Assembly (NCBI GenBank): GCA_028868515.1
Contig: JAGWUI010000013.1
Coordinates: forward strand, 1-64,000
DNA: 64,000 bases
Direction of reading: 5' to 3'
From: Gammaproteobacteria bacterium
GTDB taxonomy: Bacteria > Pseudomonadota > Gammaproteobacteria > Pseudomonadales > Moraxellaceae
Shown: positions 5,679-57,188 of the stretch, piece after piece
Position numbering within the stretch: position 1 is the stretch's first letter
Layout of the letters: the number at the start of each line of letters is the position of its first letter
The notes under the pieces: model-generated
What the model saw: the letters and a program-made list of their open reading frames with translations, nothing else
The model's database searches: none
What the model was told of the DNA's origin: nothing
Made by a program: the position numbers and the translations under genes

Positions 5679-6998
5679 ATGAAAATTTTAGTGATCGGAA
5701 ACGGATTTGATTTAGCGCATTACTTACCGACGAGTTATAACCATTTTATGGGTGTAATGCAGGCCATAGAAAATTTGCCTGATGGAAAAGACAAGATTGG
5801 TTTTGATGATTTGTTTGGCGAGTTAGCGAAACAAGAAAAATTAGAACAAAAAGAATGGTATTTTTTCGATCGAATGAAAGAACTTTATGCTCTTGAAGAT
5901 ATGACTATCGATTGTCAAGTTGTTGAAAAAACTAGAGTGAAACTCAAGAAAAATTCTTGGTACGCATATTTTAAACATCATTTATCAGATATAGAGTCGT
6001 GGATAGATTTTGAAACCAAGATAGGGGAAGCATTAAGTATTTTTAGTCTTATATCAGAGCTATTCCAAGAGTATGACGTTGAAAATATTGTAATGAGGCA
6101 AATTAAATTTTCTTCTAATGAGAAAGTGTTTCAGAAAGTATTTAGTAATAGTAAAATTTTAGATATTTTTCAGCTATTTAAATTCATAGAAGTCGATACG
6201 TTTTCTGATTATGCTCAATTTGGTTTAGATGAGGGTGTTATTAGTAGCATTAGTTTTAATGAAAGATACTTCAGAAAGTATAAGAAGGACTATAAATTTT
6301 CCTTTGGGGATTTGCTCTCTGAGCTTAGGACTGAGTTAGAGTGTTTTATTGAAATCTTTAACATTTATCTGACTGATTTTGTTGGTAAGTTTGAACCGAA
6401 AAATTCATTGGAAGCAATAGGTGAACTACCCGAACTAGATATTATATTTTCCTTTAATTATACATCTACGTTTAGAAATTTTTATCAACCAGATATTTAT
6501 TCTGATGCAATAAAGATTGAATTTCTACATGGAAAATCAGAAGTAAATACAAAAGGTTTAGTTTTAGGAATTGATGATTTTACACATGAGTTATTAAGAG
6601 AGCATAAGGCATATGGTTTTATAAAATATCACCAAAAGTTAGTCAAAGAGACCGATTATTTATTCTTAAAAGAAAATAATGGTGTTCTAGCTGAATTAGG
6701 TCCAAGGCAATATTTAGGCGATAGTGATGGGGAAATAGATATTTATATTTGGGGGCATTCACTTGATGTATCAGATAGAGATTATATTGAAGAAATTTTC
6801 TCGCTCAATGACTCTATTGAAAGTGAGTGCTTAACTAGAGTAGTCATTTACTATCATAATGATGCTTCTCGTTTTTCGATGCTTGCTAATTTAATCCATA
6901 TCCTAGGAAAGGATTTAGTAGAGCGTTGGATGAAAAAAGGTTGGCTTAAATTTGATGTGGTGCCTGATATTTATAAGCTGAACCGCCAGCTAATATAG
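5679..6998 (+). CDS. AbiH-family abortive infection protein
   Basis: A 439-residue protein with the family's hallmarks: N-terminal GNGFDLAH at 7-14, SFNYT at 258-262, FLHG at 282-285, a LVLGIDD segment at 294-300 and WGHSL at 358-362. AbiH was first described as a lactococcal abortive infection protein active against phage; the biochemical mechanism is not established. Codon use is visibly more A+T-rich than in its neighbours, which suggests recent acquisition. It stands alone between two hairpins, with no integrase or toxin partner, between otherwise housekeeping genes. The ATG is preceded by AGGAAGAA. A defence role is inferred from family membership only. Confidence 0.87.
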   Translation: MKILVIGNGFDLAHYLPTSYNHFMGVMQAIENLPDGKDKIGFDDLFGELAKQEKLEQKEWYFFDRMKELYALEDMTIDCQVVEKTRVKLKKNSWYAYFKHHLSDIESWIDFETKIGEALSIFSLISELFQEYDVENIVMRQIKFSSNEKVFQKVFSNSKILDIFQLFKFIEVDTFSDYAQFGLDEGVISSISFNERYFRKYKKDYKFSFGDLLSELRTELECFIEIFNIYLTDFVGKFEPKNSLEAIGELPELDIIFSFNYTSTFRNFYQPDIYSDAIKIEFLHGKSEVNTKGLVLGIDDFTHELLREHKAYGFIKYHQKLVKETDYLFLKENNGVLAELGPRQYLGDSDGEIDIYIWGHSLDVSDRDYIEEIFSLNDSIESECLTRVVIYYHNDASRFSMLANLIHILGKDLVERWMKKGWLKFDVVPDIYKLNRQLI

Positions 6999-7048: not shown

Positions 7049-7636
7049 TTAACCCTTCATCACTTTCTGAAACGCTGGACGTTCATACAAATTATTCAAA
7101 TACGCTTCAAAAGCAGGTCGCATTGGAATGGTCTTAAACGTCGTTCCCCAATATAACTGCGCACCGATATACACGTCTGCTGCGGTAAATTGATTTCCAG
7201 TAATGAACTTTTTATCTGTTAGTGCCTGCTCAAGCACATTGATGACGCGATCATAGTCGCCATAGCCGACAAAACCTTGCTGTTCTTGAGTCGGATTTGT
7301 GCCTAATGTTCGATTAGTCACCGCATGCTCTAAAGGCCCCGCCGTAAAAAATAACCAACGATAATAGTCCGCACGATCACTCAGTGCTGGCGCTAGATTC
7401 TTTTCTGGAAAAGCATCCGCTAAATAAGCACAAATAGCCGCCGTTTCTGTGACGACTTTGCCATCGTGGACAATCGCAGGCACTTTGCCCATAGGATTGA
7501 TCTTTAAATATTCTGGTGATTTCATCGTCGTACCGTAGTCTAACGCCACGGTGACATAAGTTTCGCCCACTTCCTCCAACATCCAGCGCGCAATTTGTCC
7601 ACGAGATTTAGGGTTGGTGTATAGCGTTAATGACAT
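7049..7636 (-). CDS. Glutathione S-transferase
   Basis: A 195-residue cytosolic GST. A thioredoxin-like N-terminal domain (about 1-78) starts with a beta strand and PKSRGQIARW, and carries the cis-proline region KVPAIV and the glutathione-contacting TETAAI motif. It is followed by an all-alpha C-terminal domain. The first strand lacks the usual Cys or Tyr of some classes; the serine in PKSRG is the likely thiol-activating position. The ATG has AAGGAAA upstream. It stands alone and the substrate is unknown. Confidence 0.9.
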   Translation of the reverse strand: MSLTLYTNPKSRGQIARWMLEEVGETYVTVALDYGTTMKSPEYLKINPMGKVPAIVHDGKVVTETAAICAYLADAFPEKNLAPALSDRADYYRWLFFTAGPLEHAVTNRTLGTNPTQEQQGFVGYGDYDRVINVLEQALTDKKFITGNQFTAADVYIGAQLYWGTTFKTIPMRPAFEAYLNNLYERPAFQKVMKG

Positions 7637-11087: not shown

Positions 11088-11666
11088 TTACGAACATGCT
11101 TTACCATGATCAGGACGTGCACCTGCTGCTTTTGCTGCTGCTTCAGTCATGTATTGACCAGCTTTGGTTTTGCCATAGTATTTTGAACCAGAACAATGGT
11201 AAACCTTGGATGCGGTATTGACCCAAACTTGACCTGCACCACCGCCAACTGCTGGAGTTGTTGTACTCGTTGTTGTCTTGGTCGTGGCTGCTGGAGCTGC
11301 TGCGGTTGTGGTTGCTGCTGTTGCGGCAGTACCAGTAGCGGCAGGGGCTGCGGGTTTTTTGCTAAAAATTGACATAAGTCCTTTTTTTGCAGGAGCCGCG
11401 GCAGGCGTGGTTGCAGGAGTCGTGGTTGTAGTTGGCGCAGGAGTGGCTGTTGTTGATGCACTTGCGGTGTACCAAACTTTGATGCCTTTATGCCCTTGGC
11501 ATGCACCAGTTTTCGTTGGTGTTGTGTTCAAAGAACCATCGTTACACACACCTGTTGTACCTGCTGGGGTGCCTGCAGGTGCAGCCACTTCGTTTGCTTT
11601 TGCGAACGCACCAGCTGAAGCCATTAAACCAATGACAAGCGTTGCAGATGCAAATAATGTTTTCAT
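11088..11666 (-). CDS. Secreted DUF3761-type protein with a low-complexity Ala/Thr linker
   Basis: A 192-residue exported protein of unknown function. The signal peptide MKTLFASATLVIGLMASAGA is followed by a likely cut after AFA at 22. A DUF3761-like segment (CNDGS...TGACQGHKGIKVWY) comes next, then about 80 residues made almost only of Ala, Thr and Pro with a short Lys/Phe-rich island (MSIFSKK). A C-terminal cysteine-containing domain follows, with YYGKTKAGQYM and a PDHGKAC end. Four cysteines suggest disulfides in the periplasm or outside. The ATG at 11666 is chosen over the upstream one at 11729 because it starts the signal peptide and has a GCGAGA site. Confidence 0.8.
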   Translation of the reverse strand: MKTLFASATLVIGLMASAGAFAKANEVAAPAGTPAGTTGVCNDGSLNTTPTKTGACQGHKGIKVWYTASASTTATPAPTTTTTPATTPAAAPAKKGLMSIFSKKPAAPAATGTAATAATTTAAAPAATTKTTTSTTTPAVGGGAGQVWVNTASKVYHCSGSKYYGKTKAGQYMTEAAAKAAGARPDHGKACS

Positions 11667-11846
11667 ATGAATTTCTCGCTTTAAGGTCAAAAATCGTTTT
11701 TGTAACTCTGTTTCATTGACATAAAGCATTTTTGAGTTCGGCCTCCATAGCCTTATTCGGGATGCTTGTGAATAAATAATAGCCGTGTACGCATTTTTAT
11801 GATGGTAATGTTACAAATCATTACCAATTGATTGCATTTAGAATGA

Positions 11847-12836
11847 TTACAGGGGGCGATACCAACGCTCTATTCCGACCTGATGTAAACTTAGGCGTGA
11901 CAATTCGTCGGGTAGCCATTGTTCATAGTCACCCGTTGCTCGCATGAGAAAATCTAAAATGGTCCAATGCTGGCGCAGTACACGACGCAAACGATGCGGC
12001 AACATCGGATGAAAGAGTCCAAAACGTTGGAAGAATTGACGTGGATTTTTACGCAGCCAGAGCCATGATCCCATTTCTAGTGTATAGGGCAGAAATAATG
12101 GTTTTCCCGCACTATTGGCATGATCATAGAGGTAATCCCACAAATCACCATGCGTGGTGTAGTGCATACTTTGCGGTTCAATATGATAAAAATCATGCAA
12201 TGGATAATTTTGATTAAACAAGTCGCATAACGCGACCGCTTCGGCGAGATGTGGCGGTGGCATACGATGTGCTGCATAAGGAAACCACAAACTATCGTAT
12301 TGCCCAAAACCAGAATGCAAATCCATCGCCATCATGAAACTGGCGTTTTTGTGAGATTGCACAACACTATCAATCAACGCTTGGCTCTCTGGTGCAAGAC
12401 TTTGACCGCGATACCATGGTAGATGACGACTGATTTTTTGTCCTGCGAGTGGCCAAATGTGTGGGCCGATGGCATCGACAGGCGCATTGCGCATGAGGTC
12501 GATGCCTTTGGAGGTGGCTCGTGTACCTAAATGCAATCCCGTGACGTTGATCAGTGGAATCGAAACGATTCGCATGGTTTTCAGACGTTGTTGCAGTGAG
12601 CTATCCCAAGCCAGACAGCTCAAAGTGTGTTCTAACCACGCTAAAAGAACTTGAGAGCCGATGCGTTCATTACCATGAATGCCTGCGTAAAGACCCAGTG
12701 TTGGAACATCTTTTTCTTCAGAACCAATCGATAATTCCCAGATCGAAAATCCATCGATTTCAGCTAAGACGCGTGAGCGAACTAAGGGATGTGAGCGGAT
12801 CATCTCTAGGCGAGAGAATTCAGCAATTTCAAACAT
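11847..12836 (-). CDS. M14-family zinc carboxypeptidase-like protein
   Basis: A 329-residue metallopeptidase of the M14 / succinylglutamate desuccinylase-aspartoacylase superfamily. The zinc ligands are visible as HGNE (His54, Glu57) and His174 in MDLHSG, and a catalytic glutamate as Glu254 in YTLEMGS. There is no signal peptide, so it is probably cytoplasmic. Members cleave C-terminal residues, muropeptide crosslinks or acyl amino acids; which one applies here cannot be told. It is a single-gene unit downstream of hslO on the same strand with a 177-base gap. Confidence 0.82.
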   Translation of the reverse strand: MFEIAEFSRLEMIRSHPLVRSRVLAEIDGFSIWELSIGSEEKDVPTLGLYAGIHGNERIGSQVLLAWLEHTLSCLAWDSSLQQRLKTMRIVSIPLINVTGLHLGTRATSKGIDLMRNAPVDAIGPHIWPLAGQKISRHLPWYRGQSLAPESQALIDSVVQSHKNASFMMAMDLHSGFGQYDSLWFPYAAHRMPPPHLAEAVALCDLFNQNYPLHDFYHIEPQSMHYTTHGDLWDYLYDHANSAGKPLFLPYTLEMGSWLWLRKNPRQFFQRFGLFHPMLPHRLRRVLRQHWTILDFLMRATGDYEQWLPDELSRLSLHQVGIERWYRPL

Positions 12837-27400: not shown

Positions 27401-27976
27401 TTGAAAGTGATATCTGATGCAATTAATCAAAGTGGTTGGATCTATGTTGGCGTTGATTTAAGAGATCCACGTTATTTTAAACTTGGGCTTACAACAAGGG
27501 CTAATATTTATAAAAGATTCTCAGATACGACAAATCCTTTTTATATGCTGCTGCGCGGATATCGGATACCAGCTGAATTTATATATGGAACAGATATAAG
27601 TAGTCATGACTATCGGAAAAATGAAGCTTATTATTTGGAGCGTTATATTCACAAAGAGCTGGAAAAAAATTTTAAACGGCAAAAGCATCATGTGAATAAT
27701 TCTCCAACCGAGTGGTTCGAGGGAGATTGGGGGCTAGCACTAGGATGTGTCAATTATTTTTTTGCAAGAACTGTGCATCGGCTAGATGAGAATGGGAACG
27801 CTGTAATGGATAATTTAACTTACGATCCAGTTCTAAATAGTGGTTATTTCTACAATATTATTGAACCTTATAAGGGCAATAATATTCATATAGATAAATT
27901 GTTCAAAAAGTTCAATGAAGAGCATCTTGAATATTCTACTTTTGCAAGTGTTCTAGATATTCCCATAATTTGCTAA
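27401..27976 (+). CDS. T5orf172/GIY-YIG-like nuclease-domain protein
   Basis: A 191-residue protein with the T5orf172 (MUG113) pattern, a GIY-YIG relative. WIYVGVDLRDPRYFKLGLTT is near 13-32, with Arg/Phe in KRFSDTTNPF. An ERYIHKELEKNF helix then carries Glu and His, followed by SPTEWFEG near 106-113. These are the positions of the catalytic Tyr, Arg and Glu. The gene is visibly A+T-rich, starts with TTG behind a GGGG tract, and ends at its own terminator, all suggesting transfer. Relatives occur in phages and in defence or restriction contexts. The function is not known. Confidence 0.65.
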   Translation: MKVISDAINQSGWIYVGVDLRDPRYFKLGLTTRANIYKRFSDTTNPFYMLLRGYRIPAEFIYGTDISSHDYRKNEAYYLERYIHKELEKNFKRQKHHVNNSPTEWFEGDWGLALGCVNYFFARTVHRLDENGNAVMDNLTYDPVLNSGYFYNIIEPYKGNNIHIDKLFKKFNEEHLEYSTFASVLDIPIIC

Positions 27977-54840: not shown

Positions 54841-54883
54841 GTAATGTTTCTATCTTAGAAAATCGACCATTTAGGTGAATTTT

Positions 54884-55342
54884 ATGCAAGTTATCGAGAT
54901 GTTTAATAAGCTAAAAGGCTTGCCAGGCGGAACAATGTTATTCACGCGTGCAGTGTGTTTGAAAGCGCCTTATTTCAGTAGCATTCATCCATTGATTGAG
55001 GAAGTAAAACCAGCATATGTCCGCGTCAAATTACGCAAACGTCGTAGTGTGGAAAATCATTTGAAAACTGTTCATGCAATTGCGATGTGTAATATGGCTG
55101 AACTGGCGGGTGGCTTGATGACCGATGTCTCTGTGCCGAAAGGTTCACGCTGGATTCCATCAGGTATGACGGTCAAATATTTGAAGAAAGCAAAGACGGA
55201 TTTGATTGCAGTGGCGGATGGCTCGCACATTGACTGGAGTCAAGAAGGTGAAATCATTGTTCCTGTTATGCTTTCAGATACCAATAATGACATCGTTTTT
55301 TCTGCTGAAATCACAATGAATGTGAAGAAGGGCAAGGTTTAA
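54884..55342 (+). CDS. DUF4442 hotdog-fold protein
   Basis: A 152-residue protein of the DUF4442 group, whose fold is that of hotdog thioesterases. The central stretch HAIAMCNMAELAGGLMTDVS resembles the thioesterase helix, and SAEITMNVKKG closes the sheet. A thioesterase-like role on acyl groups is plausible, not shown. The ATG at 54884 follows TTAGGTGA; the GTG at 54875 is less likely. It is followed by a terminator and is probably regulated by the divergent TetR protein. Confidence 0.8.
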   Translation: MQVIEMFNKLKGLPGGTMLFTRAVCLKAPYFSSIHPLIEEVKPAYVRVKLRKRRSVENHLKTVHAIAMCNMAELAGGLMTDVSVPKGSRWIPSGMTVKYLKKAKTDLIAVADGSHIDWSQEGEIIVPVMLSDTNNDIVFSAEITMNVKKGKV

Positions 55343-55361: not shown

Positions 55362-55386
55362 CAGCCTCCTGCTGGGGGGCTTTTTG
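55362..55386 (+). terminator. Terminator after the DUF4442 gene
   Basis: AGCCTCC and GGGGGCT form a short stem with a TGCTG-type loop, followed by T5. Confidence 0.8.
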
Positions 55387-55429
55387 ATGTCTGATTTGTT
55401 GAATCGTCAAATGGCATGATAAGCCTATG

Positions 55430-55546
55430 GTAGGATGGGCTTTAGCCCATCAAATGCATTTGATACACTCCATTCTTCGGGCTAAACTACTATAAAAACA
55501 GATAAATAATCATTGTGATCGAATGATGGGCAGAAACCCATCCTAC
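55430..55546. repeat. Palindromic repeat element (MITE/REP-like) with two hairpin ends
   Basis: The left end GTAGGATGGGCTTTAGCCC and the right end GGGCAGAAACCCATCCTAC are inverted copies. Each end is itself a hairpin (GATGGG...CCCATC). The roughly 117-base unit has no coding capacity. The GATGGGC...GCCCATCCTAC theme is known from REP-type repeats in other bacteria. Confidence 0.65.
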
Positions 55547-55595
55547 GTTTGCTAGAAATGGAAGAATTGGATTTTAGATTTTAGGAAAAAATTAG

Positions 55596-56423
55596 ATGAC
55601 TACACCACTTATTACAATGAGTTCTGGATATATTGGTAGTGTTAATAGCTGGCTTAAGCTGTGGCATGAAATCATTTATATGAAAAAAGATATTATTCAA
55701 TTGCAAAAGAGTGAATATGATAAAAATTTTTCAGAAAAACAGTTGTTGTGTTTAGAGTCTATTATTCTAAATTTCGAAGTAGTCGAGCTAAGTGAAAATG
55801 GAAAATTCACAAAATCCATAATGGATTTTTACTATTCTGGGAGTGATCGAATTCTATGCGCATTAATGGATCAATTAGATAGAACTAAAAATTTAAATAA
55901 ATTTTTCCAATTAAGTAAATTAGAGACAATCAAAAATTTAAATAAAATACATGCTAAATATTTTAAGAATTCCTTGGTCGAAGGTATACGGTCTGGAAAT
56001 ACAAAAGACTGGCAATATTATAAATTCGACTTTGAAAAATACTACCAATATAGGGAATTTGGCGCAGGTCAATGGGCATATTGCTACGAGCCTAAATGGA
56101 AAGATTATTTTAGTAATTCATTAGTTATTGGATATTTTAATGTTGGACAACTTATTTGGGTTATCCCAGATCAAGTAACTAAAGATGGTGAATGGGAGGC
56201 TTTAATTTGTACTCCTAGTGCAGATAATTCTGTAGAAAGGTATTGTTCATTTGCTGAACTAATATTTTATAGTGTTATCTGTGGTTTATTTTTCCCATCT
56301 TTAGAATCAGTAAAAAAGAATGAGATCATAGATCATCTTGCGTCTATATTATTTGATCTTGATGTAATAAAAAATCAAAAGAGACCTAATTGGTCTGAAT
56401 GGGAGCTTATTAAGCCAAAATAA
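55596..56423 (+). CDS. Unknown protein, possible orphan immunity protein
   Basis: A 275-residue protein without a recognised family. It lacks a signal peptide and membrane helices, though a hydrophobic patch occurs near residue 225 (SVICGLFFPSL). It is rich in aromatic and charged residues, notably the WQYYKFDFEKYYQYREF stretch near 140. The gene is visibly A+T-rich compared with its neighbours. It is followed by the remnant of an Rhs/YD-repeat gene in the same direction, so it could be an orphaned immunity gene of an Rhs toxin; this is inference from position. An AGGA site lies 9 bases before the ATG. Confidence 0.55.
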   Translation: MTTPLITMSSGYIGSVNSWLKLWHEIIYMKKDIIQLQKSEYDKNFSEKQLLCLESIILNFEVVELSENGKFTKSIMDFYYSGSDRILCALMDQLDRTKNLNKFFQLSKLETIKNLNKIHAKYFKNSLVEGIRSGNTKDWQYYKFDFEKYYQYREFGAGQWAYCYEPKWKDYFSNSLVIGYFNVGQLIWVIPDQVTKDGEWEALICTPSADNSVERYCSFAELIFYSVICGLFFPSLESVKKNEIIDHLASILFDLDVIKNQKRPNWSEWELIKPK

Positions 56424-56452
56424 TAGGCCTCAACAAACACACTGTCTGATAA

Positions 56453-56578
56453 TACGACAACCTGCCCCGTCTTGTTCAGGACGAAATGACAGACAACAGC
56501 CCTCGAGCCATGATCTATACCATGACTTACAGTATAGATGCTGTAGGTAACCGCACCCAATCTGACATCCGACGGTGA
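56453..56578 (+). pseudogene. Rhs/YD-repeat gene remnant
   Basis: A short open segment (stop codon to stop codon) encodes YTMTYSIDAVGNRTQSDIRR near its end. The YSIDAVGNRT block is the YD/Rhs repeat signature (Y-x-Y-D-x-x-G-N-R-T). No start codon context or further repeats remain, so it is a fragment left from a larger Rhs-type protein gene. The overlap with the preceding unknown gene's end region suggests a former Rhs locus. Confidence 0.65.
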
Positions 56579-56654: not shown

Positions 56655-57188
56655 ATGAACAAATCAAAACGTCTCAAATACAGCGAAGTCCGCGCGCGGG
56701 TTGAACGATCCCACCAGATGGTGTTGGGTCAAACTCAGGGTCTAGGCACGATACAGATTAATCTGTTGATTAAATATAACGCTTGGCTCATGCAAGAGTT
56801 ATTAAACAAAGGGCTGGAAGACTTCGGTCTAACTGCTCCTGCGTATATCGCCATGACCATGATCAACAGTTCAACTGATCATACGGCTAATCCTTCCGAC
56901 CTGTCGTTATGCACGGGAGAAACCCGCGCGAATATGACACGCATTTGCGATGACCTTGTTGCTCAAGGGTTATTGCAGCGCGTGACCAGTCCTGTGGATC
57001 GTCGTCGTATCGATTTGTCATTGACCGAAAAAGGTCTGGATTTACTGAAAGACGTTATGCCGAAGATTCGCGAGAAGAATCGTAAGATTTTTAGTGTGTT
57101 CAGTGATGATGAACGTGAATCTCTCGAGAAATCATTATTAAAGTTGGTCAATGTGATTGAGTCGATGTCTAAATCTGCTGAGTCCTAA
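56655..57188 (+). CDS. MarR-family transcriptional repressor of the efflux operon
   Basis: A 177-residue winged-helix regulator. The DNA-binding part (about 75-140) has LSLCTGETRANMTRICDDLV and the wing RRRIDLSLTEKGLDLL. It starts without any Shine-Dalgarno motif, and the predicted promoter ends 6 bases before the ATG, suggesting leaderless translation. It is the first gene of the MarR-NodT-EmrA-EmrB operon and probably represses it; ligands are likely the exported drugs. Confidence 0.9.
   Translation: MNKSKRLKYSEVRARVERSHQMVLGQTQGLGTIQINLLIKYNAWLMQELLNKGLEDFGLTAPAYIAMTMINSSTDHTANPSDLSLCTGETRANMTRICDDLVAQGLLQRVTSPVDRRRIDLSLTEKGLDLLKDVMPKIREKNRKIFSVFSDDERESLEKSLLKLVNVIESMSKSAES

Follow-up and report, generated by a model that had tools for sequence, protein, structure and literature searches.

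A probable orphan immunity gene abutting a decayed rhs core fragment

We identified a 275-aa gene (55596-56423, +) that is probably an immunity gene left without its toxin after rhs C-terminal displacement and decay. It lies in the 64,000-nucleotide stretch of DNA analysed here (the window), which is contig C27 of genome G000. The gene is intact and low in G+C, rhs core DNA abuts its stop codon, the same layout occurs at two other loci of the genus, and its leader is shared with contig C86 of the same genome. Because the protein has no homologue or family and its structural model is unusable, we class the locus as what is left of a displaced rhs module and call the protein no more than a probable immunity protein.

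The frame has its own ATG and runs for 275 codons. At 29.5% G+C, compared with 43.6% for the window, it has the lowest value among the 55 window frames of at least 150 aa (36.6, 29.3 and 22.5% at the three codon positions). A chance open reading frame was rejected, because 2000 first-order simulations matched in length and composition gave stop-free runs of at most 193 codons (mean of 66). Judged from its sequence, the protein looks soluble (top 19-residue hydropathy of 1.6, pI 6.0). The leader (55578-55595, +) carries an AGGA ribosome site at 55583-55586, with the ATG nine bases on. An earlier note on this DNA had described a 275-residue, A+T-rich protein of unknown family, and we agree on both counts: neither the whole protein nor its parts matched any family in Pfam, NCBIfam or PADLOC at E values up to 10.

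Directly behind the gene lies a decayed rhs core fragment (56422-56562, +) that has no use as a gene. It is 79% identical to G003:C233:8895-9037 (E 6.0e-28), in a sister species of the same genus. From position 56430 it is also 80% identical to G000:C86:10467-10597 (E 9.7e-27). Both matches fall inside long intact frames with many RHS repeats (3311 aa in G003:C233 and 3535 aa in G000:C86). In the window, the rhs frame contains two stops and then reads YDNLPRLVQDEMTDN...YSIDAVGNRTQSDIRR up to a final stop at 56576-56578; the piece is therefore a scrap. The earlier note had read its YSIDAVGNRT segment as an Rhs/YD motif and the locus as degraded, and the 79-80% identity to intact rhs core and the two internal stops confirm this. 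Membership of the YD piece in some other gene was rejected because its DNA matches rhs core.

Features of a displaced module are thus partly present. The core fragment is homologous to an rhs gene of its own genome (C86, 80%), and G+C is low (29.5% compared with 47.4% for the C86 core). No intact same-clade rhs gene lies upstream: the neighbours are DUF4442 and MarR genes, and the nearest intact rhs relative that we found is on another contig, C86. Given that no intact rhs gene adjoins it, we consider the locus a relocated or decayed remnant. The rhs core homology starts within the stop codon of the 275-aa gene, which bears on whether the gene could be unrelated, horizontally acquired cargo that landed beside an rhs remnant. 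Such an origin seems unlikely, as the junction is as close as those at two other rhs loci and the leader is found again at the C86 rhs locus, even though cargo would suit a protein without homologue or family, a low G+C that any foreign gene might have, and a site that joins DNA 1.34 Mb apart in G001, another genome of the genus.

The position of the gene relative to the core is repeated elsewhere in the genus. We fetched eight rhs loci, some with little flank, and searched the proteins of their ten frames longer than 1000 aa against these loci and the window, considering matches outside the long frames at E ≤ 1e-4. Core matches of this kind came from the window and three fetched loci: G003:C233, with two pieces, L079 (G001) and L076, whose match belongs to a frame truncated at the edge of the fetched stretch. 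At two of the eight loci, decayed core follows within about 15 bases of a gene that occupies the immunity position; the window adds a third such case. The remaining six loci, some of them with little flank, had no core fragment behind the immunity position. At G003:C233, an intact Rhs and its tip come first and a 195-aa gene second; then follow a displaced tip weakly similar to GIY-YIG (E 0.039, short of the family cut-off), an LRR gene and core DNA. The LRR gene ends at 12634, and core runs from 12637 and again from 12766, the second piece covering the core region that is also seen in the window fragment. At L079, on the reverse strand, the gene that follows the intact Rhs stops at 7381, and decayed core from about 7394 represents that protein's end (70% across 130 residues). 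Going by position, we read the G003 and G001 genes as candidate immunity genes.

These arrangements also bear on whether the 275-aa gene is the displaced toxin tip itself rather than an immunity gene. Displaced tips likewise occur in low-G+C stretches among core fragments, according to the passages cited of PMC2935791. However, the 275-aa gene has its own ATG and ribosome site, with no core in front of it and core behind, and at G003 the displaced tip precedes a small gene, with core coming only after that gene. We thus regard a toxin tip as improbable. The orphan immunity gene that the earlier note proposed therefore stands as regards the degraded rhs locus and a gene position that matches two comparable loci. 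Its immunity role is one that we only infer, because we found no homologue and no intact cognate toxin, and the fold model is useless. Two of the fetched loci hold further arrangements. In L049 (G003:C233), the displaced tip and LRR gene at 11290-12634 lie between rhs scraps and are probably an orphan toxin-immunity pair. In L076 (G001:C1:54000-73000), frames of 1340, 1012 and 1308 aa follow one another in tandem inside 13 kb, and two or more of them contain RHS repeats.

The stretch before the start codon is shared with C86. Neither this recurrence nor the start of core homology within the stop codon features in the earlier note. Window positions 55549-55595 align with G000:C86:12786-12824 over 28 bases, an 8-base gap and 11 bases, with a score of 45 versus 28 or less in 1527 comparison stretches. 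The ungapped part of the match spans 29 bases at 90% (C86:12786-12814; genome-wide E 5.7e-4). The alignment stops at the ATG of the window gene, and its final 11 bases are the end of the leader. On C86, position 12786 is directly behind two small genes that follow the intact Rhs and are low in G+C (29.9 and 29.5%, with the C86 core at 47.4%). Read in frame, the two copies end in ...FARNGRIGF-stop and ...GFYITRNGRIGL-stop. This 47-base stretch may comprise the last codons of a toxin and the ribosome site, and we annotate 55548-55577 (+) as the putative end of a lost toxin, nine codons and a stop, based on the 29 bases shared at 90% with C86. Such endings would fit a toxin that finishes directly before its immunity gene. 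The argument is weakest here, as both copies are remnants. Of the position expected for an orphan immunity gene, the core side is present, and the toxin side amounts to a short putative remnant of at most nine codons shared with C86.

Searches with the putative toxin ending recovered no intact toxin. Among 299 family genomes, the exact pattern occurred just in its two source copies, with one match for the reversed control. A partly wider pattern gave 13 matches in the genome_contigs collection, none of them an intact toxin. We judged all 13 to be chance matches (12 were frames of at most 45 codons, and one was a frame of 131 codons without any sign of a toxin). The ending was shared by 0 of the 10 long frames at the fetched rhs loci. 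Behind the immunity position on C86, there is also a 155-aa lipoprotein-like gene (L048 12302-12769; 29.5% G+C, no Pfam match), which is perhaps a second orphan immunity gene.

A REP/MITE-like hairpin (55430-55546; about -38.7 kcal/mol when 55425-55550 is folded) stands in the place expected for the toxin body. It directly precedes the C86-shared stretch, and its ends recur in all four genus genomes (4/4). The upstream MITE-like repeat of the earlier note is thus real, with a hairpin of about -39 kcal/mol. Outside the module, the left neighbour is a DUF4442 gene (54875-55342, +; Pfam PF14539, E 5.7e-50) and the right neighbour a MarR-type regulator (56655-57188, +). The G001 chromosome can be aligned again from 56611, ahead of the MarR gene. 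The two neighbours, whose proteins we checked, are 1.34 Mb apart in G001; the rhs remnant therefore sits at a rearrangement joint. This distance fits the past rearrangement that the repeat had been taken to support, for which the repeat or rhs DNA would be no more than a possible cause.

Whether the gene is still active is a separate matter. It might be a former immunity gene that is now inert, either unexpressed or with its end cut by the core joint. The stop codon falls exactly at the core junction, and the + strand upstream has a single weak promoter-like site (9/12), such sites being no commoner than in shuffled sequence (8 found; shuffle mean 5.8, sd 2.4). Furthermore, a terminator-like site after the DUF4442 gene (55363-55381) makes read-through into the 275-aa gene doubtful. 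Nonetheless, the frame has stayed open over 275 codons at 29.5% G+C with its ribosome site kept, and the G003 gene in the immunity position likewise ends within bases of core DNA. We consider an inert gene rather unlikely; in our main reading, the gene would still be expressed and protective today.

Relatives of the protein were sought widely. The family collection comprised 348 genomes in 16 genera (an earlier scan covered 299 genomes of the same family), and the sole match was the protein itself. Among 369 genomes of the class, there was no homologue beyond the protein itself and two noise-level pieces (60 and 47 residues, E 0.001 and 0.002), which we dismissed as noise, each having an internal stop. 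Plasmids and phages yielded no homologue, nor did genome contigs and viral contigs, in scans that both reach close relatives only. The best E value against the eleven fetched loci was 3 (the phmmer part run without filters), and a sequence search of solved structures returned four matches, the best at E 0.91. Structure prediction without an alignment gave a mean pLDDT of 31.9, with zero residues at 50 or above. Homology to a toxin-paired immunity protein, a feature of orphan immunity genes, is hence absent across the 348 family genomes and the other collections. Without a homologue there is no independent link to a toxin; equally, the missing relatives do not point to another family.

We propose the following history. 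A toxin tip and its immunity gene would have been joined to rhs core DNA via C-terminal displacement, which would leave older core DNA behind the immunity gene. The toxin part would then have been lost, perhaps except for its last codons, and the REP/MITE-like element would have come to occupy its place. The downstream core piece would have decayed and the adjoining chromosome been rearranged. The gene and its ribosome site would have been kept because the product binds and blocks a matching toxin delivered by neighbouring cells.

Loci of this kind are already well described in the literature. Jackson et al. 2009 (PMC2935791) describe low-G+C tips behind rhs genes, together with rhs core fragments that vary in length, and propose recombination through circles. 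These arrays and the window are alike in having low-G+C genes and core fragments left by displacement. However, the fragments in that account are downstream of an intact rhs, whereas the window has none beside it and one short core piece after a small gene. For Serratia marcescens Db10, the cited part of PMC10539506 reports an orphan Rhs immunity protein that is demonstrably protective. As in the window, it is encoded by a small toxin-less gene and read as immunity against other strains. The Db10 gene differs in its place behind an intact rhs pair, its 88% identity to a working immunity protein and its demonstrated protection, three lines of support that set it apart from the window gene. In the Vibrio cholerae T6SS clusters described in the cited portion of PMC5361080, arrays of orphan immunity genes are retained. 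Immunity genes there outlast effector replacement, a retention akin to the one that we propose for the window. The V. cholerae arrays are in T6SS clusters and have known relatives, whereas the window has a single, relative-less gene between DUF4442 and MarR genes. For Acinetobacter baumannii, the text cited from PMC6833914 mentions a few instances of retained orphan immunity genes.

New here are a protein without a family and, from the three joints, a slight indication that core DNA resumes at the stop codon of the gene in the immunity position. If our reading is true, the rhs repertoire of the family would gain an unassigned immunity protein and, by implication, also an unassigned toxin, and an immunity gene would have outlived, at this one site, both its toxin and the carrier gene. 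The joints between core and stop codon provide a small, testable clue to where displacement units are cut and joined. We tentatively suggest that the protein could found an undescribed immunity family whose partner toxin ends like RNGRIG[F/L], and that tip-immunity units of the genus could join core at the immunity stop codon or only a few bases from it, giving them a sharp 3' edge. The general picture of rhs evolution is unchanged.

The intact Rhs proteins encoded at L048 (G000:C86, 1331-11938) and L049 (304-10239) are very large (3535 and 3311 aa), and by eye their N-terminal halves resemble a signal sequence with many repeated extracellular domains behind it. Elsewhere in the window, a 439-aa gene of the AbiH family (abortive infection; 5679-6998, +; Pfam E 1e-30) has the second lowest G+C of the 55 longer frames (31.1%), and a 191-aa gene with a T5orf172 domain (27401-27976, +; E 1.7e-9) has 34.0% G+C.
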